A stretch of DNA of 64,000 nt, taken from assembly GCA_030584085.1 (NCBI GenBank), contig CP129490.1, positions 2,079,511 through 2,143,510 on the forward strand, read 5' to 3'. The notes under the pieces are model-generated. The model searched no databases and was not told the origin of the DNA. It saw only the letters and a list, made by a program, of their open reading frames with translations. The translations under genes and the position numbers were made by a program. This document shows, piece by piece, positions 17,984 through 37,905 of this stretch. Source of the DNA: Melioribacteraceae bacterium. Lineage in GTDB: Bacteria > Bacteroidota > Ignavibacteria > Ignavibacteriales > Melioribacteraceae. How positions within the stretch are numbered: the first letter of the stretch is position 1; each line of letters starts with the position of its first letter.

Positions 17984-19585
17984 TTATCTGAATCGTTTAG
18001 TTAAATTAACAAATATTCTTCCAAAACTATCAGTTTCTTCAAACGCACCTTCGTAACTCATGTTTAAGTAAATTGAATCACTAAATTTGACAGATAAATT
18101 CGATTCAAAAATATTTTGTTTTAAATCCGATAACCCGGATGTAAAATTATATACCAAATTTCTATAGCTCAGACCAAGATTTAGTAATCCATCAAATAAA
18201 TCCTTGTATATCCGCACACCAATTATTTTTCCATCTAAATAGTTAGTCATCAAGTAATTACCGCTTACGGTTATGGATGAATTAATAAAGGGCACTCGGG
18301 AATACGTGATGCTTCCATCATAATTTTTTGTCGGTTCATTATCTCCCGGAACATACCTATAACCGGTCCCAAAATTTAACATCAAGTAATTTATAGGTTT
18401 AACTGTAACTCTTAATCTCAAACCCTGCCGGGTTTCGGATTCAAGGATACTATCTGCTACTGATTTATAAGTTTCATAATAAACTACATTTTTTCTTGCA
18501 TCATAAGAGGCTGTAAGAGAAATAAATCGTGATGGTGAATACCGGGAAGAAAAATAAAAACTCGTTAAATCAAATACACTTTTTCCCTCCCCTTTTTCTC
18601 TTTTATATAAATCCACTTCAGTTGAAAAGAATATATCGATATTTTCTATAACATTATTTGAATGCTGGAAGTATAAAAATCTTCTGTCTGTTTTGAAATT
18701 ATTTGTCTGCTGAAATAATGCAAATGAGTTTTTCATTATCTTATTGTTAATCGAATCAGTGCGAGCAATGTATCCTCCGTATTCAAAAAGCTTTGCATTA
18801 TAACCGAAATCCGAAAAATGAGGGCGGGAACCGATCACCAAACCATAATCAAAATAATCTACTTTCGATTCAAACTGAACACCGTCAATTGTACTAATGT
18901 TTGCCAAATTTGAATTGATTCTTCTACCAAACCAGATATTAGTTTCATTATTAAAATCATATTTAAACGCTAGGTTATATATCTTCAATGCAGTCATTAA
19001 ATTATTCTCTACTCTTCGCCATTCGTGAGTACGGTAAGAAAATGTTACATAACTTGTCATAGATAAACTTGAGCCGCCTATATTCTCGTAATTTAATGAA
19101 GACCTATACTTCCACCTTTGAGTGTTAATCGATTTTTCTCTGTTTGTCAGGTTCGAATAAGATGTTACTCCTATTCTCCCATAAAATCTTGATTCCTTTC
19201 CTTCAACTTCTGCTGATATCTCTTGAATTTTAATTTCCTCGGAAGTTTCGGTAATAATAGGTTTATCTATTTCTTTATTTACAATTTTTTCAGGCTGAAT
19301 TTTAGGTTGATACTTACGATAAACAATCGAACCGACATTCAAATCAATTGAAGGCTCAACAGCGCACGAAGTTGAAGAAAGAAATTTTACTGTTCCCGCA
19401 ACCTTATATTGGTTATTTTTTAAAGTAAAAACAGAATCGCCTACTTCCAGCCAATCAAAATTTTCGAATCGAATGTAGATATGCTCCGCAGATTTGTAGG
19501 TCACTTCACCATTAATGTAAGTAACCGTCTGTGCAAGTAACGGTAAAAAAGTTAATATAATTATTAAAACCAGTTTCTTCATCAA
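17984..19585 (-). CDS. outer-membrane beta-barrel protein of the multihaem cytochrome operon
   Basis: 533 residues with a signal peptide (about 1-18, ending LLAQ). Residues 20-85 look like a small SH3-like beta domain (TYINGEVTYKS, DSVFTLKNNQYKVAGTVKF). A linker rich in Glu, Pro and Lys follows, and from about residue 130 to the end there are alternating amphipathic strands rich in Tyr and Phe, closing with FVNLTKRFR. This is a barrel pattern without a family I recognise. It has no CXXCH. It is the last gene of the operon and overlaps the 43-haem cytochrome gene by 4 nt, which suggests that it houses or anchors a cytochrome in the outer membrane, like MtrB or Pcc porins; that is inference. 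Confidence 0.7.
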   Translation of the reverse strand: MMKKLVLIIILTFLPLLAQTVTYINGEVTYKSAEHIYIRFENFDWLEVGDSVFTLKNNQYKVAGTVKFLSSTSCAVEPSIDLNVGSIVYRKYQPKIQPEKIVNKEIDKPIITETSEEIKIQEISAEVEGKESRFYGRIGVTSYSNLTNREKSINTQRWKYRSSLNYENIGGSSLSMTSYVTFSYRTHEWRRVENNLMTALKIYNLAFKYDFNNETNIWFGRRINSNLANISTIDGVQFESKVDYFDYGLVIGSRPHFSDFGYNAKLFEYGGYIARTDSINNKIMKNSFALFQQTNNFKTDRRFLYFQHSNNVIENIDIFFSTEVDLYKREKGEGKSVFDLTSFYFSSRYSPSRFISLTASYDARKNVVYYETYKSVADSILESETRQGLRLRVTVKPINYLMLNFGTGYRYVPGDNEPTKNYDGSITYSRVPFINSSITVSGNYLMTNYLDGKIIGVRIYKDLFDGLLNLGLSYRNLVYNFTSGLSDLKQNIFESNLSVKFSDSIYLNMSYEGAFEETDSFGRIFVNLTKRFR

Positions 19586-22500
19586 AACTCACTATCTTTT
19601 AAACTTGGGAATGTAACGTTACCTGCTTTACCGTCAGGGTGACATTCATAACATGCTACGCTTTCATAAACATACCCACTTACATCATTGTGTTTACTAT
19701 CCATTTCAGTCTGATTATGCTCGTGACAATCAATACATGAGAATACTGAATAATTTGCTGCATTCGTATGACAATCGCTGCACGAATTCCACTCATTTTG
19801 ATGTTCGCCGGAATAAATCGGGAAATACTGTCCATCGTGATTAAACGTAGATGGCTCCCATGCATTTTGAGAATGACATTGCTCACAATCGGTTGGAAAT
19901 TGCGCTGCCGAGTGAGACGGATCAGTTGTTGAATTATAATCACTTTGATGACATTGAAAACATGTGTTTGGCGTATTATTGTAATCACCGTTGTGACAAT
20001 CAATACAGTTACTACTAATTGCAGCATGTGCACCTATCAACTGATAGAAATTATCATGAACAGGAAATTCAGCCGGACTCCAATCAGGGTTAGTCGTGTG
20101 ACAATCATCGCATTGAGTTCCTAATCCGATTTGTTGATGGTCCGGATTGGATGATAAGTTAAAATCATTCGTGTGGCAATCATAACAAACTGTGCTTGTT
20201 CCTGAAAATCCATCGCTATGGCAGCTAGCGCAACTCTCACCAATATGCGCGCCGGTTAAAGGAAAATTTGTACCGTTATGATCAAACGTGGTTTCTTGCC
20301 AACTAGTTGTTACGTGGCATTGTTCACAAGCGGTAGGATAACCTAAAGACGAATGATCAGGAGCGATTGAGTAATCATTTTCATGGCAAGCAAAACAAAT
20401 ATTTTGAGTTGTTGAGACATCGGTTGTATGACAACTCGAACAATCGGGAATCTGATGCCCACCAATTAATTCAAATCCAGTTGTTGAGTGATTAAAAGTA
20501 GAAGGAATCCATACATCTGTTGAGTGACATTCTTCACAGGTTTGCGATAGAACTAATATTGAGTGAGAAGGATTTTGGCTTGAATTGTAATTATTATTAT
20601 GGCAATCAAAGCACAAACTTGAAGTGCCGAGATAACCGTTCTGATGACAATCTTCGCACAGAAGATTTGTATGTGCACCGGTTAAAGGAAAGTTTGAATT
20701 TGCGTGATTGAAAGCCCCTTCTGCTGTTCCGTTAGGGTGGCAGGCAAAACATTCTTGACTTAGAAAAACATAACCTTCAACTCCTGTATGTTCGTTATCC
20801 ATATCAGTTTTATTGTGCTCGTGACAATTAGTACAAACAAATTCACTATAATTATTTTGATTTGTATGACAATCCGAACATGCATTCCATTCACCATTAT
20901 GCTCACCGGAATATATTGGGAAGAATTGAGCATCATGGTCAAATGTTGCTGGTGTCCAAGAAGTTTCATTATGACAAACTTCGCAATCAGTAGTAAAACC
21001 TGCAGATCGATGTGCAGGGTCAGTTGTTGAATCATAATCAGATTCATGACAACCGATACATTGATTTGGTGTAGTATTATAATCAATTGTATGACAATCG
21101 GCGCAACTTGGAACAGTGAGATGAGCTCCTAATAAAACAAAATAATCATTGTGATTTGGAAACTGAGCAGGGCTCCAACCAGGATCCGTCGTATGGCATT
21201 CATCACATTGATTTGATAAACCTAAATTTTGATGATTAGGATTCATTGCGGAATTGAATTCATCCGTGTGACAATAAAAACATAAAGTAGAAGTTCCTTC
21301 AAATCCGGCAGAATGACAATCGCTACAAATTTGAGTAACATGTGCACCTGTTAGCGGGAAATTAGTATTACTATGATTAAATGTCGATACTTCCCAAGCT
21401 GTTGTTGAATGACATCGTTCGCAATCCATCGGATAACCTAACGATGTGTGATCAGGTGCGTTTAAATAATCATCTTGATGACAATCTTCGCAAAGTATCG
21501 ATGTACCTTGATAACCTGAAATATGACAAGCCTGACAATCAACTGTTATATGTGAACCGGTGAGTGGGAAATTGGTAGTATTATGGTTGAATCCCCCCTC
21601 ACCCGAACCCGTCGGATGACATGATAGACAAGCAGAACTTTCATAGATATAACCGTTTATTCCAATATGCTCGTCATCCATATCTGTTTTGTTATGTTCA
21701 TGACAATTGGTACAGCTAAACACGGCATAATTGTTTGCATCTATGTGACAATCCGAACATGCACTCCATTCACCGTTATGTTCACCAGAATATATTGGGA
21801 AGAATTGTGCATCATGGTCAAACGTTGCCGGTGTCCAGGCATTTTGAGAATGACATTCTTCACAATTGGTTGAAAAATTTAATGTAATGTGCGATGGATT
21901 AGTCGTTGAATTATAATCAGATTCATGACATCCAATACATTGGTTAGGAGTATTGTTATAACCCGTTGAGTGACATTGATTACAATCCGAAGCGATAGCA
22001 GCATGAGCCCCTATTAAAGGATAAATATCATTGTGATTTGCAAAAGTGGCCGGACTCCATCCGGGATTTAATGAATGACAAATTGAACAATCAGTATCAA
22101 ATCCTAAAGCAACGTGGTTAATTATTTGTGCATTTTCATAATCAGCTTGATGACATTGAAAGCATTCCGAATTTAACTCGCTAAAGGTATTTTGTGAATG
22201 ACATTCAAAACAATTGCTTATCTGATGTCCACCTATTAACGGAAAAAATTCGTGTGCAAATGCAGCCACCGACCATTCAGAATCCGTTAAACTATGGCAT
22301 TCTTCACAATCGGTTGAAAAACCAGACAAAGCATGATTTGGATTCAGTGTACTGTTGTAATCCACTTTATGGCAATCATAACAAGCTGAACCAAGCGGTT
22401 CAAATCGTAGATCTGAAACGGATATATGACAATCTTCACAATCAGCAATCGCATGATTGCCAACTAAAGGGAATCTACCTAAGTCATGAATTTCCTTAAT

Positions 22501-22830
22501 ATTTGTTACTACCCAACTATTATTATTATGACAAACTTCACACTCAGTTCCTACTGTCGTTTCATGAATATCAAAATGACATTCGAAACAATTATTATTT
22601 ACATTCTTAAATACAAGCGATTCATGACAGTCGGTACAATTTACAATTTTATGCTGTCCCAATAATTCAAATTTGGTTTGAGAATGGTCAAAGGAAATTT
22701 TATCAAAGTCAACCTTCCAGCTTTGTGCAGTATGACATATGCTGCAATCGAGAGAAAAGCCATCGCCGTGCGGCGCTTGTGCCATTAGAGAAAGTGAAAA
22801 CAGCACTAAGATGAATGACAGTTTATACAT
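19582..22830 (-). CDS. giant multihaem c-type cytochrome (about 43 haem motifs)
   Basis: 1082 residues with a signal peptide (about 1-18, ending SLMAQ). I count 43 CXXCH haem-attachment motifs, roughly one per 25 residues, with interspersed distal His (FDH, GAH, NH). The protein is modular: units with FPLTGAH...CxxCH...CxxCHxxDY...CExCH...WxPxxF repeat along its length, and a longer block containing IYSGEHN...CSDCH...CHEHN occurs three times. No lipobox and no membrane segment beyond the signal peptide. It should be exported through Sec, receive haem in the periplasm, and form a long electron-conducting wire. It overlaps the neighbouring 20-haem gene by 25 nt and the barrel gene by 4 nt. Confidence 0.9.
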   Translation of the reverse strand: MYKLSFILVLFSLSLMAQAPHGDGFSLDCSICHTAQSWKVDFDKISFDHSQTKFELLGQHKIVNCTDCHESLVFKNVNNNCFECHFDIHETTVGTECEVCHNNNSWVVTNIKEIHDLGRFPLVGNHAIADCEDCHISVSDLRFEPLGSACYDCHKVDYNSTLNPNHALSGFSTDCEECHSLTDSEWSVAAFAHEFFPLIGGHQISNCFECHSQNTFSELNSECFQCHQADYENAQIINHVALGFDTDCSICHSLNPGWSPATFANHNDIYPLIGAHAAIASDCNQCHSTGYNNTPNQCIGCHESDYNSTTNPSHITLNFSTNCEECHSQNAWTPATFDHDAQFFPIYSGEHNGEWSACSDCHIDANNYAVFSCTNCHEHNKTDMDDEHIGINGYIYESSACLSCHPTGSGEGGFNHNTTNFPLTGSHITVDCQACHISGYQGTSILCEDCHQDDYLNAPDHTSLGYPMDCERCHSTTAWEVSTFNHSNTNFPLTGAHVTQICSDCHSAGFEGTSTLCFYCHTDEFNSAMNPNHQNLGLSNQCDECHTTDPGWSPAQFPNHNDYFVLLGAHLTVPSCADCHTIDYNTTPNQCIGCHESDYDSTTDPAHRSAGFTTDCEVCHNETSWTPATFDHDAQFFPIYSGEHNGEWNACSDCHTNQNNYSEFVCTNCHEHNKTDMDNEHTGVEGYVFLSQECFACHPNGTAEGAFNHANSNFPLTGAHTNLLCEDCHQNGYLGTSSLCFDCHNNNYNSSQNPSHSILVLSQTCEECHSTDVWIPSTFNHSTTGFELIGGHQIPDCSSCHTTDVSTTQNICFACHENDYSIAPDHSSLGYPTACEQCHVTTSWQETTFDHNGTNFPLTGAHIGESCASCHSDGFSGTSTVCYDCHTNDFNLSSNPDHQQIGLGTQCDDCHTTNPDWSPAEFPVHDNFYQLIGAHAAISSNCIDCHNGDYNNTPNTCFQCHQSDYNSTTDPSHSAAQFPTDCEQCHSQNAWEPSTFNHDGQYFPIYSGEHQNEWNSCSDCHTNAANYSVFSCIDCHEHNQTEMDSKHNDVSGYVYESVACYECHPDGKAGNVTFPSLKDSEF
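19677..21830. repeat. three long homologous repeats inside the 43-haem gene
   Basis: The segments 19677-19853, 20775-20951 and 21654-21830 align without gaps at their core (offsets 1098 and 879 nt, both multiples of three). Copies 2 and 3 are close at DNA level; for instance TATATTGGGAAGAATTG is identical at 20912 and 21791. They encode the block ending CHEHNKTDMD. The third copy is more diverged. Confidence 0.8.
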
Positions 22831-26330: not shown

Positions 26331-27203
26331 TTAGAAAATCCATTTATAACCGAATGCCAATGTTACTCCAACATGAACTAACATTATTATTAACATAATT
26401 ATTGCAAACGGTAAATGAAAGATGTGCCAATACCTAAAGATACTTTGCATTGATCTCAAAAGTTTTATCCTTCTATTGAGAGTCAGTTTAGTTTTGGTAA
26501 GCTTTAAAATTGTTTTTTTGTTTTGTTTTGAAACTTTATTGTAGGTTAAATTTTTATTCACTTTATAAAGTATTTTTGAAGTTATCCAATATCCTTTCAG
26601 AAGAAATGTAAAAATACCGCTCTCGGATTTCATATAATTTTTAAAATCAAAATTATTTATTTCATCTTTTAGATCTTGAGAAAGACCTTTTTCCCCTTCT
26701 AATTTCTCAGCCATTTCTTCATCAATTAATCTGAGTTCGTTCAACGATAATTCTTTACCCGAAATACTTCGAGGAATTTGAATATAAATATATCTTCCAA
26801 TAACACCACTTAAAACAACGGCGATCATACTCCAAAAGCTTACAGCAACAATTCCACCGAACTTGAATGCAGTATGAAATAAAACAAACATAGGACCAAC
26901 ACTGCACAAAAAAATGTGAAATTCGAGCCAATGTTTTAACAAACCAATTCTTCCGAATTGTCTTATTCTTTTTCTAGCAATATAAACTCCAACTCCGATG
27001 AGCATCATTAATGAACCAATAATTCCAAGACCGTGCCCTACTGAACCGCTCGGTTTTAAAGAAGTGTGTGAAGGATTAAAAAATCTTTCTTCTAGAGAGG
27101 TGGTATAGTAATCAAATCCGTTATAAATTAACAAGACAAACGAGGCAACACCTGCTAAAATGAAAACTCCAACATAAAGATTATGCTGCGTCTTAGTCAT
27201 CAA
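26331..27203 (-). CDS. putative dihaem b-type membrane cytochrome
   Basis: 290 residues with five hydrophobic helices (about 9-29, 55-76, 90-113, 118-142 and 258-286) and a cytoplasmic basic stretch at 205-250. Two helices each carry a His pair spaced 14 residues apart, H96/H110 and H263/H277, the usual geometry for two bis-His haem b stacked across the membrane. Extra His at 57, 91 and 260 sit near membrane edges. I do not recognise a named family, so cytochrome b is a structural inference. As first gene of the operon it would be the quinone-linked membrane module feeding the multihaem proteins. Confidence 0.6.
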   Translation of the reverse strand: MMTKTQHNLYVGVFILAGVASFVLLIYNGFDYYTTSLEERFFNPSHTSLKPSGSVGHGLGIIGSLMMLIGVGVYIARKRIRQFGRIGLLKHWLEFHIFLCSVGPMFVLFHTAFKFGGIVAVSFWSMIAVVLSGVIGRYIYIQIPRSISGKELSLNELRLIDEEMAEKLEGEKGLSQDLKDEINNFDFKNYMKSESGIFTFLLKGYWITSKILYKVNKNLTYNKVSKQNKKTILKLTKTKLTLNRRIKLLRSMQSIFRYWHIFHLPFAIIMLIIMLVHVGVTLAFGYKWIF

Positions 27204-28524: not shown

Positions 28525-31500
28525 ATGATAAATACACTAATAAAATTCTTTCTCGAAAATAAGCTTGTTACGGTGCTGCTTCTCATTTTGTTTGTGGGAT
28601 GGGGCATCGTAACGGCTCCTTTTAATTGGGATATTGAACTTCTTCCACGTGATCCAGTTCCTGTAGATGCAATTCCGGATATTGGTGAAAACCAGCAAAT
28701 CGTATTTACCGAATGGATGGGAAGAAGTCCCCAAGATGTCGAAGACCAAATTACATATCCGTTAACAACTTCTCTTCTTGGTTTGCCTTCAGTTAAAAGT
28801 ATAAGAAGTACATCGATGTTCGGCTTCTCAAGTATTTATATAATCTTTGATGAAGATGTTGAATACTATTGGAGTAGAACTCGTGTGCTCGAAAAATTAA
28901 ATTCGCTCTCAAGTGATTTGCTGCCAGAAGGAGTTTCCCCTACATTGGGCCCGGATGCAACTGCATTGGGACAAATATTTTGGTACACACTCGAAGGAAG
29001 AGATCAAGATGGGAACCCAATTGGCGGTTGGGATCCTCACGAATTGAGAACAATACAAGACTACTATGTTCGTTACTCATTGACAGCATCGGAAGGTGTT
29101 TCAGAAGTTGCATCAATTGGCGGATTTATAAAAGAATATCAAGTAGATCTTGATCCCGTTGCACTAAAAGCACACAATGTAAGCATGATGCATGTTGTTG
29201 ACGCAATTAAACAAAGCAATCTTGATGTCGGTGCAAACACTATCGAGTTAAACTTGGCTGAATATTATGTGCGCGGATTGGGTTATGTAAAATCTTTAGA
29301 AGATATTGAGCAGGCAGTAGTAAAGGTAACAGATAACATTCCCATTAGAATAATTGATGTTGCTAAAGTAAACATTGGGCCAGCACCGCGAGGTCATAGC
29401 GGATTCTTGGACAAAGGCGGCGCCGAAGCGGTTGGCGGAGTTGTTGTTGCTCGTTATGGTGATAATCCGCTTAAGATTATTCAGAATGTTAAAGAGAAAA
29501 TAAAAGAAATTTCTCCGGGACTTCCCTCTAAAAAACTTGATGACGGAAGAATATCAAAAGTTACAATAGTTCCATTCTACGATCGCACCGATTTAATATA
29601 TGAAACACTCGGTACGTTAAATGAAGCAATTAGTCTTCAAATTCTAATAACAATTATAGTAATCATTATTATGGTAATGCATCTGCGAGCTTCTTTAATG
29701 ATTTCTGCCCTGCTCCCTATTGCAGTGTTGATGGTCTTTATAATGATGAAATATTTTAATGTAGATGCCAACATTGTTGCACTTTCCGGTATTGCTATCG
29801 CGATAGGTACAATGGTTGATCTCGGTATTATTCTTAGTGAAAATATTCTTCGGCATAAAGACGAAGCCCCTCCGGGACAATCAATGTTGATGACTGTTTA
29901 CAATGCATCGGCTGAAGTATCATCGGCAATAATTACTGCTGTATCAACAACAATTGTTAGTTTTCTTCCGGTGTTCACATTGCAAGCAGCAGAAGGAAAA
30001 TTATTCGGACCACTCGCTTTCACAAAAACATTTGCATTGGTCGCGGCTCTAATTATAACATTATTTATGATGCCGGCATTTGCTCATTGGTTATTTTCGT
30101 TAAGGACACGTAAAAATGTTCATCGAGTTTATCTTAACATCGCATTGATTGTATTCGGATTTATTTCATTATTCTGGATCACTTGGGCAGGTGTTGTTTT
30201 AATTTTACTTGGATTAAACAATACTCTCTACAATCTATTTAATGATGAGGAAATAAAAGAAAATCCATTTTACAAAAAATATAATCTTTCCCGATACCGT
30301 TTATACATTGACTTTCTAATAAAACATCACGAAAAAATTACAGTAGCAATAATTACTGGTGCTGTTGCTTGGCTACTTGCCGGAGAGTGGATGCCGCTAG
30401 GTGTGAAGAATCCTTTGTTAATTAATTTCTTTTTTATAATTCTCATTATTGCTCTCGTGCTTGGCATCTTCAAAGTATTCATAAATTATTATCCCAAGAT
30501 TTTAAAATGGTGTCTTGATAATAAAAAGATATTCTTAACAATTCCGATCTTTATAATTTTGTTCGGGATAAATATTTGGCTCGGATTCGACAAATTTTTT
30601 GGAATCATTCCCAAAGGGTTTGATGCAGTTGGATTAAACATTCGCACTACAACTCTTTGGAGTACTCTATCACATTCATTTCCCGGAATGGGAAAAGAAT
30701 TTATGCCCTCTCTTGATGAAGGTTCGTTTTTATTGATGCCTACTTCAATGCCGCATTCCGGGGTTGAAGCAAACCAAAAATATTTGCAACAACTTGATAT
30801 GCGTGTACAAGCAATTCCGGAAGTAGAAACAGTTGTTGGTAAAGCCGGTAGGGTTGAAAGTGCACTTGACCCAGCACCTCTTTCGATGTTTGAAAATGTT
30901 ATCCTTTATAAAAACGAATATATAACTGATGAAAACGGTTATCCTATCCGTTTCAAGATTGACGACAACGACGAATTCGTTAGAGATGAAAAAGATAATT
31001 TAATCGAAGATAATAATGGTAGATACTTTCGTCAATGGCGTGATCACATTAAATCACCGGATGATATTTGGGACGAAATTGTAAAAGCTACAAATGATAT
31101 TCCCGGTGTAACTTCAGCGCCTAAATTGCAGCCGATTGAAACTCGACTTGTAATGCTGCAAACCGGTATGCGTGCCCCGATGGGAATTAAAGTTTATGGT
31201 CCAGACTTAAAAACTATTGAAGACTTCAGTCTAAAATTAGAATCGCTTCTTAAAGAAGTTCCTTCAGTTAAACCCGAAGCAGTATTTGCTGACCGAAGTT
31301 TAGGTAAGCCTTATCTTGAAATTGATCTTGATCGTACGGAAATGTCTCGTTACGGATTAAGTATCGGTGATGTTCAAATGTATATCGAAGTTGCGATCGG
31401 TGGTATTCCTTTAACACAGACGGTTGAAGGACGTGAACGTTTTAATATACGAGCAAGATATGCAAGAGAATGGCGAGATAATCCCGAAATGATTAGACGA

Positions 31501-32352
31501 ATTTTAATTCCCACACCAACCGGTTCGCAAATTCCGCTTGCACAAATTGCAAAGATCGAATTTCGCCAAGGTCCGGCAATGATAAGGGGTGAAGATACAT
31601 TCCTTGTCGGTTATGTTTTGTTGGATAAAAATCCCGGCTATGCAGAAGTAACAGTTGTTGAAGAAGCTCAGAAATACCTTGAGTCTAAAATTGCCTCCGG
31701 TGAATTGGAAATACCGGCGGGAGTTAGTTATAAATTTTCCGGAAGTTATGAAAATCAACTTCGTGCTGAAAAGCGTTTAAGCATCATTGTTCCGCTTGTT
31801 CTTGCTGTTATCTTCTTGATATTATATTTCCAATTTAGATCATCTACCACATCTCTCATGATTTTTACAGCAATAGCACTTGCATTTGCTGGTGGCTTTG
31901 TAATGCTTTGGTTTTATGGACAAAACTGGTTTATGGATTTCTCATTATTCGGGACTAACATGAGAGAATTATTCCAAATGCGAACATTTAACTTAAGTGT
32001 CGCTGTTTGGGTCGGTTTTATTGCATTGTTTGGAATTGCTACCGACGACGGAGTAGTAATTGCAACTTACTTGAAGCAGAGTTTTCAAAAAAATAAACCT
32101 GAAAGCTTAGAAGAAATTCATACCGCAGTATTAGAAGCGGGAATTAAAAGAGTTCGTCCTTGTTTGATGACAACTGCAACAACATTGTTAGCGCTGTTAC
32201 CTGTTTTAACGTCAAGCGGAAGAGGTTCGGATATTATGATACCTATGGCAATACCGGCTTTCGGCGGAATGACGATTGCGTTGATTACATTGTTTGTTGT
32301 ACCCGTACTTTATTCTGCCCGTGAAGAATTTTTATTAAGGAAGAATCAATAA
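28525..32352 (+). CDS. cusA: heavy-metal efflux RND pump, CusA-like
   Basis: Inner-membrane proton-driven trimeric pump that exports Cu(I)/Ag(I). RND hallmarks include IPDIGENQQIVFTEWMGRSP split around the pore, GIAIAIGTMVDLGIIL and the C-terminal IATDDGVVIATYL. The three Met known to form the Cu/Ag site of E. coli CusA all have counterparts: FLLMPTSMP, APLSMFENV and LVMLQTGMRAP. At 1275 residues it is about 230 longer than typical; extra sequence lies at about 523-690, adding membrane helices after the first half, and at about 790-845, a charged Asp/Asn-rich loop. The stop overlaps the TolC start by 1 nt. Confidence 0.93.
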   Translation: MINTLIKFFLENKLVTVLLLILFVGWGIVTAPFNWDIELLPRDPVPVDAIPDIGENQQIVFTEWMGRSPQDVEDQITYPLTTSLLGLPSVKSIRSTSMFGFSSIYIIFDEDVEYYWSRTRVLEKLNSLSSDLLPEGVSPTLGPDATALGQIFWYTLEGRDQDGNPIGGWDPHELRTIQDYYVRYSLTASEGVSEVASIGGFIKEYQVDLDPVALKAHNVSMMHVVDAIKQSNLDVGANTIELNLAEYYVRGLGYVKSLEDIEQAVVKVTDNIPIRIIDVAKVNIGPAPRGHSGFLDKGGAEAVGGVVVARYGDNPLKIIQNVKEKIKEISPGLPSKKLDDGRISKVTIVPFYDRTDLIYETLGTLNEAISLQILITIIVIIIMVMHLRASLMISALLPIAVLMVFIMMKYFNVDANIVALSGIAIAIGTMVDLGIILSENILRHKDEAPPGQSMLMTVYNASAEVSSAIITAVSTTIVSFLPVFTLQAAEGKLFGPLAFTKTFALVAALIITLFMMPAFAHWLFSLRTRKNVHRVYLNIALIVFGFISLFWITWAGVVLILLGLNNTLYNLFNDEEIKENPFYKKYNLSRYRLYIDFLIKHHEKITVAIITGAVAWLLAGEWMPLGVKNPLLINFFFIILIIALVLGIFKVFINYYPKILKWCLDNKKIFLTIPIFIILFGINIWLGFDKFFGIIPKGFDAVGLNIRTTTLWSTLSHSFPGMGKEFMPSLDEGSFLLMPTSMPHSGVEANQKYLQQLDMRVQAIPEVETVVGKAGRVESALDPAPLSMFENVILYKNEYITDENGYPIRFKIDDNDEFVRDEKDNLIEDNNGRYFRQWRDHIKSPDDIWDEIVKATNDIPGVTSAPKLQPIETRLVMLQTGMRAPMGIKVYGPDLKTIEDFSLKLESLLKEVPSVKPEAVFADRSLGKPYLEIDLDRTEMSRYGLSIGDVQMYIEVAIGGIPLTQTVEGRERFNIRARYAREWRDNPEMIRRILIPTPTGSQIPLAQIAKIEFRQGPAMIRGEDTFLVGYVLLDKNPGYAEVTVVEEAQKYLESKIASGELEIPAGVSYKFSGSYENQLRAEKRLSIIVPLVLAVIFLILYFQFRSSTTSLMIFTAIALAFAGGFVMLWFYGQNWFMDFSLFGTNMRELFQMRTFNLSVAVWVGFIALFGIATDDGVVIATYLKQSFQKNKPESLEEIHTAVLEAGIKRVRPCLMTTATTLLALLPVLTSSGRGSDIMIPMAIPAFGGMTIALITLFVVPVLYSAREEFLLRKNQ

Positions 32353-33881
32353 TGAAAAAAATAACTTATAAACCGTTGAAACGGTTCTTAAACTTAATTT
32401 ACCTCTTATTAACCAACGGATTAATCCGTTGGGTAATTGAACAAAAAAAACATAATTCCAACTGTTTCAACAGTTTTAATCCTTATAAATCTTTCAGATG
32501 GTCAATTTCTGCTATTATAATATTTTCAGTAAATGTTATTACTGTTCATTCACAAACTCTTAATGATTACCTGAATATTGCGGCTGAAAATAACCCCGGA
32601 TTAAAATCAAAATTTTATTCATACCAAGCTTCATTAGAAAAAATCAATCAAGTTGGTAGCCTGCCTGATCCACAACTTACTTTCGGTTACTTCCTTGAAC
32701 CGATGGAAAGATATATGGGCAACCAGGTAGCAGATATTTCTCTTATGCAAATGTTTCCATGGTTTGGTACACTTGGAGCTGCTGAGGAAGAAGCCGCTCT
32801 TATGGCTAAAGCTAAATATGAAGCATTCAACGATGCAAAAAGTATGTTATTCTTTGAAGTTAAGTCAACTTGGTATGAACTTTACCTGCTTCAGGAAGAA
32901 ATAAGAATAACCGAAGAGAATTTAGAGATCCTTCAAACATTGGAAAAGCTTGCAATCAATAGATTAAAAAGCGGTGGAACAAGTCAAACAAGAAGTTCAA
33001 AAACCCCGTCAATGAATTCCAAACAATCTTCTGCTTCATCAAACGGTATGGGTGGAATGAGTATGAGTAATCAAAGTTCCAGCTCAACGCCCACTTCCGG
33101 TAAATCAAGTATGAGTAGTATGTCTGCGATGAATGCTGATAATTCAATGATTGATGTACTTCGTGTGCAGCTTGAAATAAACGAATTACAAAATAAATTA
33201 GAACTAATGCACGATAGTATGCACCCACTAATGGTACGGTTTAATAATTTATTAAACCGGTCAGAAGATGAATTTGTAAATATTCCCGATACACTCCAAC
33301 CTTCTCAATTACCCGGGAAGGATAATGAATTAGCAAACAATATTCGCTCTCTAAATCCGATGATTCGCATGCTTCAAAAAGAAGAAGAAGCATTAATTGC
33401 AAAAGAGGAAATGAATAAAAAAATGGGTTACCCGATGATTGGTCTGGGTTTGCAATATTCTATTTTTCAACAGAGACCCGGATCGATGATGGAACCGAAT
33501 AATATGGTAATGCCGATGGCGACAATTAGTATTCCTCTATGGCGAGGCAAGTACGATGGAGCTATCGATGAATCAGTAATTCGACAGAAAGAAATCTCTC
33601 AACTTAGACTTGAAACAAGTAATCAATTAATTTCGAGCTATGAAAACATCATAAAATATTTCAATGATGCAGAAAGACGAATGACATTGTATCAAAAACA
33701 AAGGGATATTGCACAACAAACTCTTGATTTACTTATTGTTCAATATTCAACATCGGGTACACAGTTTGAAGAAGTACTAAGAATACAGCAACAGATATTA
33801 GATTATCGTTTACGAAGTTTAAATGCTATTGTTGATCAAAAAAAAGCTGTGGCAATGCTTGAAAGGTTGTTGGGAAGATAA
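32352..33881 (+). CDS. TolC-family outer-membrane channel with REP-derived N-terminus
   Basis: 509 residues; the outer-membrane exit duct for the CusA/CusB system. Coiled-coil and barrel repeats of the family are seen from TLNDYLNIAAENNPGLK (about 69-85), through MFPWFGTLGAAEEEA, to the second half (MATISIPLWRGKYDGA). Two oddities. First, the hydrophobic signal core (about 50-66, ending VHSQ) is preceded by about 45 residues, most encoded by a palindromic element at 32371-32475. Second, residues 207-265 are a Ser/Met-rich insert between helices. The ATG shares 1 nt with the cusA stop and no closer in-frame start exists before the signal core. Confidence 0.88.
   Translation: MKKITYKPLKRFLNLIYLLLTNGLIRWVIEQKKHNSNCFNSFNPYKSFRWSISAIIIFSVNVITVHSQTLNDYLNIAAENNPGLKSKFYSYQASLEKINQVGSLPDPQLTFGYFLEPMERYMGNQVADISLMQMFPWFGTLGAAEEEAALMAKAKYEAFNDAKSMLFFEVKSTWYELYLLQEEIRITEENLEILQTLEKLAINRLKSGGTSQTRSSKTPSMNSKQSSASSNGMGGMSMSNQSSSSTPTSGKSSMSSMSAMNADNSMIDVLRVQLEINELQNKLELMHDSMHPLMVRFNNLLNRSEDEFVNIPDTLQPSQLPGKDNELANNIRSLNPMIRMLQKEEEALIAKEEMNKKMGYPMIGLGLQYSIFQQRPGSMMEPNNMVMPMATISIPLWRGKYDGAIDESVIRQKEISQLRLETSNQLISSYENIIKYFNDAERRMTLYQKQRDIAQQTLDLLIVQYSTSGTQFEEVLRIQQQILDYRLRSLNAIVDQKKAVAMLERLLGR
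32371..32475. repeat. REPIN-like palindromic element inside the TolC coding region
   Basis: Three palindromes in a symmetric array: AACCGTTGAAACGGTT (32371-32386), CCAACGGATTAATCCGTTGG (32413-32432, perfect) and AACTGTTTCAACAGTT (32460-32475). The outer two share the core GTTGAAAC in opposite orientation, so the element reads as an inverted pair around a central palindrome. It is in frame with no stop. Confidence 0.7.
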
Positions 33882-34003
33882 ACTTACTAATGAAAAATTG
33901 TTGATGGGAAATGGAATCAAAGATATTTGGAATTTGTTTTTTGTGTTTTTGAATAAGGGTTTTTCTAAAGAATTAATTTGTGTTTTTAATTAAGGAGAAT
34001 TAT

Positions 34004-36097
34004 ATGGACGAACATAATCATAAAGACAGTGGTCATGAACATCATCCTCATAATAAAGAACCAGAAAAACACACACATCATAAGAAACATGATGAACATG
34101 ATATGCAAGAGCATAACAAAAAACAAAATGGACATGATCATGGCGGACATGATAAACACGCCGGTCATTCGGTGGAAGGTTTTTTGAAAAAATTTATTAT
34201 CAACACTATCGTAACAATACCGGTTCTTGCATTATCGCATATGATACAACAATGGCTTGGTTTTGAATTGACATTCATCGGTGATAAATATGTTTTGAGT
34301 GCTCTTGCAACTTTCATATTCTTTTACGGCGGATTTCCTTTCTTAAAGGGATTGTATGATGAAGTCCGAACAAAAAGTATCGGGATGATGACTTTAATTG
34401 GAGTTGCTATAACCGCAGCCTGGGCTTACAGCTTTGCAGTTACACTCGGACTTACAGGGATGGATTTTTACTGGGAGATGGCAACTTTGATTGATATTAT
34501 GCTTCTCGGTCATTGGCTTGAAATGAAATCAGTTAAAAGTGCATCGCGTGCGTTGGAACTTCTAGTTAAAATGATGCCTTCGAATGCTCACCTTGTATTA
34601 AATGGTGAGATGAAAGACGTTCCGGTTGAAGATTTAAAAGAAAATGACATTGTAGCAGTTAAACCGGGAGAAAAAATTCCAGTTGACGGAGTTGTAATTG
34701 ACGGCGAAAGTCACCTCGATGAAAGTATGTTAACAGGTGAAAGCAAACCGGTTAAAAAGAAAAAAGATGATCACGTTATCGGTGGTTCAGTCAACGGTAA
34801 CGGTTCTTTAAAAATAAAAGTTTTGCATACAGGTAAAGACAGCTACCTCAATAAAGTAATAAAGCTCGTTGAAGATGCGCAAAAAGTAAAATCGAAAACT
34901 CAAAATCTTGCCGATCGTGCTGCAAAAATTTTAACATTTGTAGCTCTAATCGGTGGTGTTATCACTTTGATTGTATGGCTTGCACTTGGATTTGAATTTG
35001 TTTATGCACTGGAAAGGATGGTAACTGTTATGGTTATCTCATGTCCGCATGCACTAGGGCTTGCTGTGCCTTTGGTAGTTGCAATCTCAACAACAATGTC
35101 TGCAAAAAAAGGATTGCTTATCCGTAACCGCACTGCATTCGAAAATGCACGGCTAATTAATACAATAGTTTTTGATAAGACCGGAACTTTAACTAAAGGT
35201 TCACACGAATTATCTGGAATAATAGTGATTGATAATCAATATGATGAGAAAGAACTCCTCAAATTTGCATCAGGAATTGAAAAACACTCTGAACATTATA
35301 TAGCAAGAGGATTCATGAATAAAATTAAAGAAGAAGGAATTAAAGTTCCTGAATCCGAAAAATTCGATAGTATTCCGGGCAAAGGCATTGAAGGAATTGT
35401 TGAAGGTAAAGAAATAAAAGTTGTTGGACCAAATTACCTAAAAGAGAAGGAAATTGAGATACCGGATTCTGCGAAAAACGCAACCGCAGCAACAATCGTA
35501 TATATCTTGATTAGTAACAAACTTGTCGGTTATTTCACATTTGCAGACCAGATACGTGAGGAATCTTTCGATGCAATAAAAACTCTAAAGAGCGAGGGAA
35601 TTAAAAACTTATTACTTACTGGTGATAATGAAAAAGTTGCGAAGAAAGTCAGTGATGAATTAAAAATGGATGGATTTATGGCAAATGTCCTGCCTCATCA
35701 AAAACTTGAAAAAGTTAAGGAACTTCAGAACAATGGTGAGTTTGTTGCAATGACAGGCGATGGTGTAAATGATGCACCTGCACTTGCACAGGCAGATGTT
35801 GGTATAGCTGTTGGTTCGGGAACTGATGTGGCTGCCGAAACAGCCGATATAATTCTTGTAAACTCAAATCCGAAAGATATAGCTGATCTTATTTTATTCG
35901 GCAGAGCGACTTATAAAAAGATGATGCAAAACCTAGTCTGGGCTACAGGTTATAATATTATTGCTATTCCTTTGGCTGCAGGTGTGTTGTATAACTTTGG
36001 AATAGTTTTAAGTCCGGCTATCGGAGCAGTATTAATGAGCATGAGTACTATCATCGTTGCAATTAATGCTCAGCTATTAAAAAAATCAATGAAATGA
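34004..36097 (+). CDS. copB: copper-exporting P1B-type ATPase, CopB-like
   Basis: 697 residues. The N-terminal 55 residues are extremely His-rich (for example [27 protein letters not shown]), and there is no CXXC HMA domain. The membrane metal site is CPH ([13 protein letters not shown]), the P1B-3/CopB type, in contrast to the CPC of CopA. ATPase motifs are complete: [17 protein letters not shown] and [12 protein letters not shown]. The frame is open 24 nt upstream to a GTG at 33980, but AAGGAG at 33992-33997 supports the ATG at 34004. It exports Cu or Ag from the cytoplasm and sits between the tolC and cusB genes. Confidence 0.92.
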
Positions 36098-36120
36098 ATT
36101 AAATAAGTGAGAAAAAAATT

Positions 36121-37905
36121 ATGAAAACAATATTTAAAAACCGGATATTCCAATTTTTTCTGGTGCTATCGGCAGGACTTTTAATCGGCTGGTTTCTGTT
36201 TGGCGGCAATAATTCTGAAACTCATCTGCATAATAATGAAGTTGCTGAAGAAACAATATGGACTTGCTCAATGCATCCACAAATTAGGCAAAATGAACCG
36301 GGCAAATGTCCAATCTGTGGAATGGATTTGATTCCCCTATCCAATAATAATCAAGAGGTTCAAAATAATTTTACTTATTCAATGTCACCGGAAGCAGCAG
36401 CTTTAGCAAATGTCCAAACAAAAAAAGTAACTTACAATATTCCTGAATATGAAATAGCATTAACAGGTAAAGTATTTCCCGATGAAAGAAAACTTGTTTC
36501 AATAACTGCCGACTTTTCCGGTAGAATTGAAAAATTATTTGTTGATTTCACCGGGCAAACAGTACAAAAAGATGAAAAACTAGGAACGATCTATTCACCT
36601 GAATTAGTAAGCGCACAAAAAGAACTTCTTGAAGCTGCAAAGAACAAAGAAAGCAATCCTTCTATTTATTCAGCAGTTAAAGAAAAGCTTCGTTTATGGA
36701 AAATGACAGAAAAACAGATTTCTTATATTGAATCTGCAGGCGAAGTATTTACAGAATTAGATATTTATGCTGATGTTTCCGGGATTGTCACAAAAAGAAA
36801 TATTTCAACTGGAGACTATACAAATAAAGGAGATATTCTTTTTGAAATTGCAGACCTGAGTTCTGTATGGATTATGCTTGATGCTTATGAAAGTGATCTT
36901 CCTTGGATTAATCTTGGAAGTAAAGTGAATTTTAATGTAGCTTCGCTACCCGGTAAAGAATTTAGTTCGACTGTTACATTCGTTGATCCGTTAATCAATC
37001 TTCAAACAAGAACAGCTTCTGTAAGAACCGAAACCAGTAATCCCGGTTTATTGTTGAAGCCGGGCATGTTTGTTAATGCAATTTTGAAATCAACTTCATC
37101 AAATTTAACAATGTCCAGGAACAGTGGATCAAAATCATTGATGATTCCTAAAACATCTGTGTTGTGGACTGGCAAGCGTTCGGTAGTTTATGTAAAAACA
37201 CCAAGAGCCGAATCCCCTACTTTTGAAATGCGTGAAGTAATTTTAGGTCCACAAGCCGGGAATAATTACATAGTCGAAAAAGGTTTAACCGATGGTGAAG
37301 AAATAGTTGTTAATGGAGTCTTCGCCGTCGATGCTGCAGCGCAGCTCAGTGGCAAACATAGTATGATGAATCAACCTGAAAGCAAACGTCTTGAAGTTAA
37401 TAATACATTCAAAACACAATTAACAGATGTTGTAAATAATTACTTTCTTCTTAAAAATGCCTTTGTAGAAAGCGATGTGGCTAAAGTAAAAAAAGAAGCA
37501 CAAAAAGTTAACCGTTCTCTAAAAAATGTAAATATGAGTTTACTTGAAGACGAGCCGCATCATCAATGGATGGAAATAGAAAATAATGTAAGTAGTTCAC
37601 TTTCTTCTGTAATAGAAACCAACGAAATAGAAGAACAAAGAAAACATTTTGAAATAGTTTCAGAAGCATTAATTAAAGCTACAGAATTATTTGGAGTTAA
37701 CATTGATTGGGTATACGTTCAATACTGTCCTATGGCTTTTGACGATAAAGGTGCATATTGGTTAAGTGAATCTGAAGAAATAAGAAATCCATATTTTGGT
37801 GATATGATGTTAACTTGTGGAGAAGTTACAAAAAAAATTAGTGCAATAGATAGCTATAAAACTTCTGAAGAAAAAACTAACCGGCAATCGGAACATCAAC
37901 ATTGA
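36121..37905 (+). CDS. cusB: RND periplasmic adaptor, CusB-like, with HMBD and DUF3347-type domains
   Basis: 594 residues: membrane anchor (about 10-28), a heavy-metal-binding domain WTCSMHPQIRQNEPG with C49, C63 and C66 (the CPICGMDL pattern), the adaptor body with lipoyl-like (AEFSGRIEKLFV-like, GTIYSPELVSAQKELLEA) and beta-barrel regions, and a C-terminal helical domain of the DUF3347 kind (about 430-575) ending in YCPMAFDDKGAYW and MMLTCGEV. The protein finishes with a His-rich tail. It joins CusA and TolC and may present metal to the pump. 23 nt after copB. Confidence 0.9.
   Translation: MKTIFKNRIFQFFLVLSAGLLIGWFLFGGNNSETHLHNNEVAEETIWTCSMHPQIRQNEPGKCPICGMDLIPLSNNNQEVQNNFTYSMSPEAAALANVQTKKVTYNIPEYEIALTGKVFPDERKLVSITADFSGRIEKLFVDFTGQTVQKDEKLGTIYSPELVSAQKELLEAAKNKESNPSIYSAVKEKLRLWKMTEKQISYIESAGEVFTELDIYADVSGIVTKRNISTGDYTNKGDILFEIADLSSVWIMLDAYESDLPWINLGSKVNFNVASLPGKEFSSTVTFVDPLINLQTRTASVRTETSNPGLLLKPGMFVNAILKSTSSNLTMSRNSGSKSLMIPKTSVLWTGKRSVVYVKTPRAESPTFEMREVILGPQAGNNYIVEKGLTDGEEIVVNGVFAVDAAAQLSGKHSMMNQPESKRLEVNNTFKTQLTDVVNNYFLLKNAFVESDVAKVKKEAQKVNRSLKNVNMSLLEDEPHHQWMEIENNVSSSLSSVIETNEIEEQRKHFEIVSEALIKATELFGVNIDWVYVQYCPMAFDDKGAYWLSESEEIRNPYFGDMMLTCGEVTKKISAIDSYKTSEEKTNRQSEHQH

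Follow-up and report, generated by a model that had tools for sequence, protein, structure and literature searches.

A 43-haem cytochrome of a probable PCC3-type conduit belongs to a Bacteroidota family built from whole triheme modules between fixed ends

We consider it likely that the 43-haem protein encoded in the 64,000-nt stretch of DNA analysed here (the window) is the outer, surface-exposed cytochrome of a PCC3-type conduit, that its family grows by whole modules between fixed ends, and that the layout found in this particular gene is old.

The gene must lie on the minus strand, since the plus-strand reading of 19582-22830 holds 62 stops. The original prediction had reported 43 CXXCH motifs in the 1082 residues of this ORF without giving the strand, and a recount agrees with this number; neither CX3CH nor CX4CH motifs occur. 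With 25.2 aa per haem (1082/43) the protein is repeat-rich, and its 46 histidines outside the CxxCH motifs fit a bis-His ligation of the 43 haems. That the ORF might not be a gene at all was rejected, as it is 98% identical in a metagenome-assembled genome (MAG) of the same species (L007), as the gene order is conserved, and as dN is far below dS. The match to the Pfam family Cytochrome_C7 (PF14522; 112.4 bits, gathering cut-off 24.8) is a sum over weak repeats, no stretch of which passes alone, and the score with the DmsE/MtrA decahaem family (TIGR03508) is below the curated cut-off (39.1 versus 192.2 bits). The nanowire_3heme model TIGR04257 does not appear in the list of matches, which extends to an E of 10, phmmer gave no match in the PDB at E 0.01, and profile searches returned weak matches only, among them the 16-haem HmcA, the nine-haem cytochrome, NrfB, GSU1996 and MtrF. 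The cytochrome fold could not be modelled, as the full-length AlphaFold2 model has a pLDDT of 36.6 and is unusable.

The single first haem is followed by 14 triheme units of 68-78 aa with a period of about 73 aa, in which the haem spacing recurs as about 32-35, 15 and 25 residues (Table 1). Above this triheme period there is a higher-order period of 12 or 15 haems, in which C-type units (4/8/13) and D-type units (5/9/14) recur. The three blocks on which the original prediction was based (19677-19853, 20775-20951 and 21654-21830) do align at offsets of 1098 and 879 nt; as they correspond to the D-type units 14, 9 and 5, it was the larger period that had been seen, and the triheme period was missed. 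Internal repetition is above chance, with a longest exact repeat of 20 nt where 200 codon shuffles gave 12 nt on average and 18 nt at most, and the 14-unit array with its unit copies at whole-unit offsets supports the view that this cytochrome has grown by internal duplication. The unit consensus, derived from 612 units of 56 proteins, contains three CxxCH motifs and three distal histidines that are conserved at 99, 99 and 91%, and in these c3/c7-like modules a bis-histidine ligation of most or all haems is therefore likely.

Table 1. Features of the 43-haem cytochrome gene and its operon (positions in the window)
Feature	Position	Strand	Remarks
Inner-membrane protein (IMP), 290 aa, ferric-reductase/cytochrome-b-like	26331..27203	-	WX3HX13H at residues 92 and 259, SGXXG at 132
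TPR protein, membrane-anchored, 197 aa	25725..26318	-	TPR families
Fe-S flavoprotein, membrane-anchored, Fer4 + thioredoxin-reductase-like NAD(P)/FAD domain, 446 aa	24380..25720	-	Pyr_redox_3 E=7e-47, Fer4_10 E=2e-10
20-haem cytochrome, inferred periplasmic, 525 aa	22806..24383	-	20 CxxCH
43-haem cytochrome gene	19582..22830	-	encodes 1082 aa; an export signal at the N-terminus (by eye) is followed by the single haem and the 14 triheme units
Haem motif 1, single haem ahead of units	22732..22746	-	protein position 29
Triheme unit 1	22528..22731	-	terminus conserved between genera
Triheme unit 2	22294..22527	-	terminus conserved between genera
Triheme unit 3	22075..22293	-	terminus conserved between genera
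Triheme unit 4, C type	21850..22074	-	60-61% aa identity to units 8 and 13
Triheme unit 5, D type, contains block 21654-21830	21616..21849	-	72% aa, 76% DNA to unit 9
Triheme unit 6	21409..21615	-	
Triheme unit 7	21193..21408	-	
Triheme unit 8, C type	20971..21192	-	
Triheme unit 9, D type, contains block 20775-20951	20737..20970	-	
Triheme unit 10	20524..20736	-	
Triheme unit 11	20314..20523	-	
Triheme unit 12	20098..20313	-	
Triheme unit 13, C type	19873..20097	-	
Triheme unit 14, D type, fixed C-terminal cap, contains block 19677-19853	19639..19872	-	identity 0.77 to last unit of other genera, 0.65 to best copy within own protein
Outer-membrane beta-barrel (porin), 533 aa	17984..19585	-	AlphaFold2 model, pLDDT 85.2

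The same architecture is reflected in the haem numbers of the family. In 105 regions (31 + 74) we found 100 outer-cytochrome ORFs, 23 of them cut by contig ends and 77 complete, and 56 of the complete ORFs lie between the genes for the partner, i.e. the counterpart of the 20-haem cytochrome, and the barrel. The counting rule was derived from these 56 proteins alone. They carry 10 to 70 haems in 17 distinct values, and the raw CxxCH count equals 3k+1 in 48 of them. The eight raw exceptions (24, 24, 24, 29, 30, 38, 39 and 39) each have one or two CX3CH motifs, one of them having in addition a motif with a lost first Cys, and once the CX3CH motifs and this one decayed motif are counted, all 56 conform to 3k+1. 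One or two CX3CH motifs, mostly near the C-terminus, are present in the outer cytochromes of L058, L059, L061, L096, L098, L106, L110 and L113, seven of which come from one genus by their genome labels and L098 from another. Irrespective of flanking genes, 61 of the 77 complete ORFs are raw 3k+1, and the remainder includes the eight exceptions, genes split between frames, second cytochromes that are short and have 9 haems, a gene for 38 haems in which two CX3CH motifs occur, and a non-fitting tandem pair. This pair (L116, 4121-8209) consists of two tandem outer cytochromes with 32 and 20 CxxCH motifs between partner and barrel, which are off 3k+1 even with CX3CH. Three distant relatives (L142, 5112-6092; L144, 5637-6527; L145, 9200-10180) have a second, short cytochrome with 9 haems, encoded between the long cytochrome and the barrel, and at two loci (L053, 1-4322; L087, 4480-7399) the outer-cytochrome gene is present in two overlapping frames, due to either frameshift mutations or assembly errors in the repeats. 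The partner, counted in complete ORFs of at least 470 aa with shorter or split ORFs left out, has exactly 20 haems in 74 of 80 cases, 19 in three and 23 in three. On the partner's tree, which covers 55 of the 56 clusters (one partner is split), at least 37 changes of the outer haem count are needed. Among four pairs with 20-haem partners of >80% identity, three differ in their outer cytochromes (43/31, 40/34 and 37/31), and the fourth, a same-species pair, has 43/43.

Where in the array does this growth take place? To answer this, we compared 567 units from the 47 proteins, other than that of L007, that have six or more of them. Among the units at the first three positions and at the last, only 7 of 188 are nearest to another unit of their own protein, as compared to 147 of 379 middle units. 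Within-protein permutation gives an expectation of 46.9 for the ends, and none of 5000 permutations was as low as 7. By this measure, the gene expands in its middle, between fixed termini of the array. Eleven of the 56 outer cytochromes have a unit pair with at least 90% DNA identity, including two with 100%, and exact internal repeats of 367, 360, 255 and 189 nt exist elsewhere in the family. The offsets of exact repeats (216, 432-438, 672, 885-897 and 1098 nt) correspond to 1 to 5 modules, and as judged by them these proteins become longer or shorter when complete triheme modules, between one and five per event, are duplicated or deleted within the middle part of the gene. Recombination between module copies would be the molecular cause.

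While this duplication mechanism fits the wider family, the dating given by the original prediction is wrong for the 43-haem gene. The expansion had been called recent, with copies near-identical in places at the DNA level, but the three blocks, in their order along the window, are identical at 67.2% (1-2), 65.0% (1-3) and 80.2% (2-3), the longest stretches without a mismatch measuring 13, 8 and 20 nt, respectively, and the best copies reach whole-unit DNA identities of 66-76% (best pair 75.6%). Synonymous sites between the copies are saturated: pS is 0.60-0.92 in ten unit pairs, compared to 0.049 to the ortholog of the same species. For 11 of the 14 units, the closest relative beyond the same-species MAG is a unit in the protein of another genus and not a copy in the own protein, and for units 5, 9 and 12 the two are tied within 0.01. 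On these distances, the duplications predate the genera compared, and the layout of 14 modules is old. A recent origin of the copies, with haem numbers that differ between strains today, would agree with the exact whole-unit offsets and with the recent copies that relatives do have, but we regard it as hardly credible in view of the saturation, the longest exact repeat of only 20 nt, the closer relationship of units 4, 13 and 14 to other genera than to each other, and the identical count in the only same-species genome (L007, which shares its coordinates with G151 and was taken as one genome with it). The expected variation between strains thus was not seen in this single pair, with 43 haems in both, whereas close species do differ. 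It could also be argued that differences among relatives are artefacts of collapsed repeats, as most genomes of the family are drafts, whose assembly can collapse repeats, and as such a collapse would remove whole units and keep the 3k+1 pattern. Contig ends indeed occur 15 times per 139 kb (0.108/kb) in the outer-cytochrome gene, about three times the rate in the flavoprotein and partner genes (3 per 90 and 3 per 95 kb; 0.033 and 0.032/kb), with none in the barrel gene; this excess is consistent with repeats at which assemblies break, and the haem number may be underestimated in some of the drafts. As a general explanation, however, collapse is very improbable: long exact repeats are absent from many proteins (with 15 nt in L040 and 44 nt in L039, for example), which makes collapse unlikely in them, and genomes in a single contig differ as well, with 43 (G000), 37 (G049), 28 (G046) and 34 (G048) haems.

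The 43-haem gene is the fifth of a six-gene operon on one strand, whose genes are close or overlapping and encode, in this order, the IMP, the TPR protein, the Fe-S flavoprotein, the 20-haem cytochrome, the 43-haem cytochrome and the barrel. A scan of the operon for promoters and terminators found sites no more numerous than in shuffles. Among the 56 complete clusters, with L007 being cut by its contig end, the flavoprotein is present in 54, the IMP in 53 and the TPR protein in 29. The IMP has no match in Pfam or NCBIfam; its hydropathy windows form five groups, H96/H110 and H263/H277 are invariant across 15 diverse homologues, and of 96 homologues, 88 carry the complete signature and 95 the two HX13H motifs. 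The TPR protein matches a CcmH/CycH-type TPR model weakly (E=4.8e-6), below the cut-off of that model, and could possibly be a helper of cytochrome-c maturation. In the flavoprotein, as read by eye, a lysine-rich stretch comes directly after the hydrophobic N-terminus, and its soluble part is therefore probably cytosolic. The 20-haem cytochrome scored 18.1 bits with TIGR04257, below the cut-off of 40. The barrel model has a small N-terminal beta domain and 22 long strands from residue 133 on. It resembles PirA (Z=20.0, rmsd 4.6 over 348 residues), with other large outer-membrane barrels also matching, and Foldseek lists MtrB (6r2q_B) at rank 17 (E=1.6e-7); MtrB was not among the 50 matches listed in the comparison that gave PirA, which says nothing against a likeness to MtrB. 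No sequence was found with the barrel's sequence profile in the PDB. Near the operon, a probable heavy-metal efflux set occupies 28525-37905 of the plus strand, with an RND efflux gene, an outer-membrane efflux protein, a P-type ATPase and a CusB-like fusion protein in succession.

Of 58 genomes searched for relatives of the 43-haem protein, 34 have one. Searches for the IMP were positive in 78 of the 164 genomes from the order and in 39 of 395 sampled from the phylum, the two samples overlapping. At the limits used, both IMP and barrel are missing from G001 and G002, two genomes of the same genus, and the cluster is thus patchy. The whole set, together with a CcsA-type haem lyase gene, is found on the plasmid pEMTOL02 of Emticicia oligotrophica (L066; NC_018749.1, 78197-89995), where the partner has 23 and the outer cytochrome 40 haems. 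Plasmid searches with the IMP gave 15 records beyond Emticicia, and in the seven regions of these that were read, proteobacterial or other, no barrel or giant MHC is annotated; there, the IMP is accompanied by a 2Fe-2S protein or an FAD oxidoreductase, mostly plus a small cytochrome. A distant IMP relative lies on an Alteromonas macleodii plasmid (L068, 6974-13693) beside a 2Fe-2S protein, a cytochrome c3-like protein and hydrogenase genes.

How might such a conduit function? In the path that we propose from the gene set, NAD(P)H would reduce the membrane-anchored Fe-S flavoprotein, and electrons would pass on to two b haems of the IMP and from there to the 20-haem periplasmic cytochrome, which would be held by the barrel. 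This cytochrome would deliver them to the N-terminal modules of the 43-haem wire, along which they would reach an extracellular partner, and the path may also run in reverse. Docking to the conduit and capping of the tip are probably what keeps the first three and the last modules fixed. A different view is that the protein mainly stores charge, so that more modules mean more stored electrons. Capacitors of this kind have been proposed in the literature on PCC3 cytochromes (PMC10734462) as well as on large triheme arrays of the periplasm (GSU1996; PMC10138318), and free variation in module number suits capacity as well as reach, but the fixed termini and the constant partner suggest a connected element with two special ends; this argument is not decisive, and we consider a mainly storing function possible, albeit on the unlikely side. 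A conduit that takes up electrons by metal or mineral oxidation, instead of exporting them, appears somewhat less probable still: PCC3 was described from Fe(II) oxidisers (PMC5566968), but an NAD(P)-type flavoprotein in nearly all clusters fits export of electrons from NAD(P)H as well or better. If the protein is a wire, one may tentatively go further and think of it as length-adjustable across Bacteroidota, with a conserved, perhaps NAD(P)H-linked conduit and a nearly constant 20-haem partner, and with an outer length (10 to 70 haems) that is reset by single triheme modules between fixed docking and tip modules, fast enough for near sister species to differ. In that case, reach or charge capacity would be a rapidly evolving and perhaps selected trait. 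As natural length variants share the partner, the effect of wire length on electron transfer is testable.

Haem-rich PCC3 clusters, their repeats, variable outer cytochromes and differences in haem number between near relatives are already in print. In the literature consulted on these systems we did not find the 3k+1 rule, the fixed ends or the constant partner, nor a spread through Bacteroidota. A literature search gave no paper that joins PCC3 with Ignavibacteria or with Bacteroidota, although other wordings or subscription papers could hold one. The findings would extend PCC3-type conduits to Ignavibacteria and other Bacteroidota, with the flavoprotein suggesting a route of electron entry. 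In the published descriptions, PCC3 consists of a barrel, an extracellular MHC with a median of 34 haems, a periplasmic MHC with about 21 haems and an IMP of about 300 aa with five TM helices (He et al. 2017, PMC5566968), and the IMP of PCC3/PCC4 has two WX3HX13H motifs and SGXXG (PMC5566968); the MHCs are described as repeat-rich and haem-dense, with outer MHCs that vary in number (PMC5566968; Gallionellaceae survey, PMC10734462). Going by these descriptions, the barrel, the giant MHC, the second MHC, here with 20 haems, and the IMP motifs resemble PCC3 of Proteobacteria, whereas the Bacteroidota host and the Fe-S flavoprotein that is added in 54 of 56 clusters do not. The partner has 20, sometimes 23 haems, in contrast to 21, 24 and 27 in Gallionellaceae, and the outer counts are locked to 3k+1, which the printed Gallionellaceae counts (10-16, 18, 26, 28, 29, 33, 35) are not. 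With the GSU1996-type nanowires of Geobacter (12 and 27 haems; PMC10138318) the 43-haem protein shares the single chain of triheme modules, but it has only a weak sequence similarity (3OV0, E=0.002) and no match to TIGR04257; according to that account, GSU1996 is periplasmic and has one His-Met haem per module, whereas three distal His are conserved here. MtrCAB and MtrAB (6r2q; PMC7198977) are similar in their cytochrome-in-barrel logic and in the barrel fold, but MtrB is described with 26 strands, in contrast to the 22 of our model, and its partners are decahaem. A further related study is that of Arbour et al. (2020, PMC7399161), which reports varying haem numbers in large MHCs of Burkholderiales and Anaerolineales, 33- and 40-haem MHCs in Ignavibacteria, and gain or loss of haem domains between near relatives, suspected to occur in pairs or multiples. 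The parts of that paper available to us contain no triheme quantum, fixed ends or operon-wide comparison, and its authors regard haem-number variation in homologous cytochromes as an exciting unexplored area. In the present family, this variation follows a rule (3k+1) and has a module as its unit, while the ends stay fixed and the partner is nearly constant.
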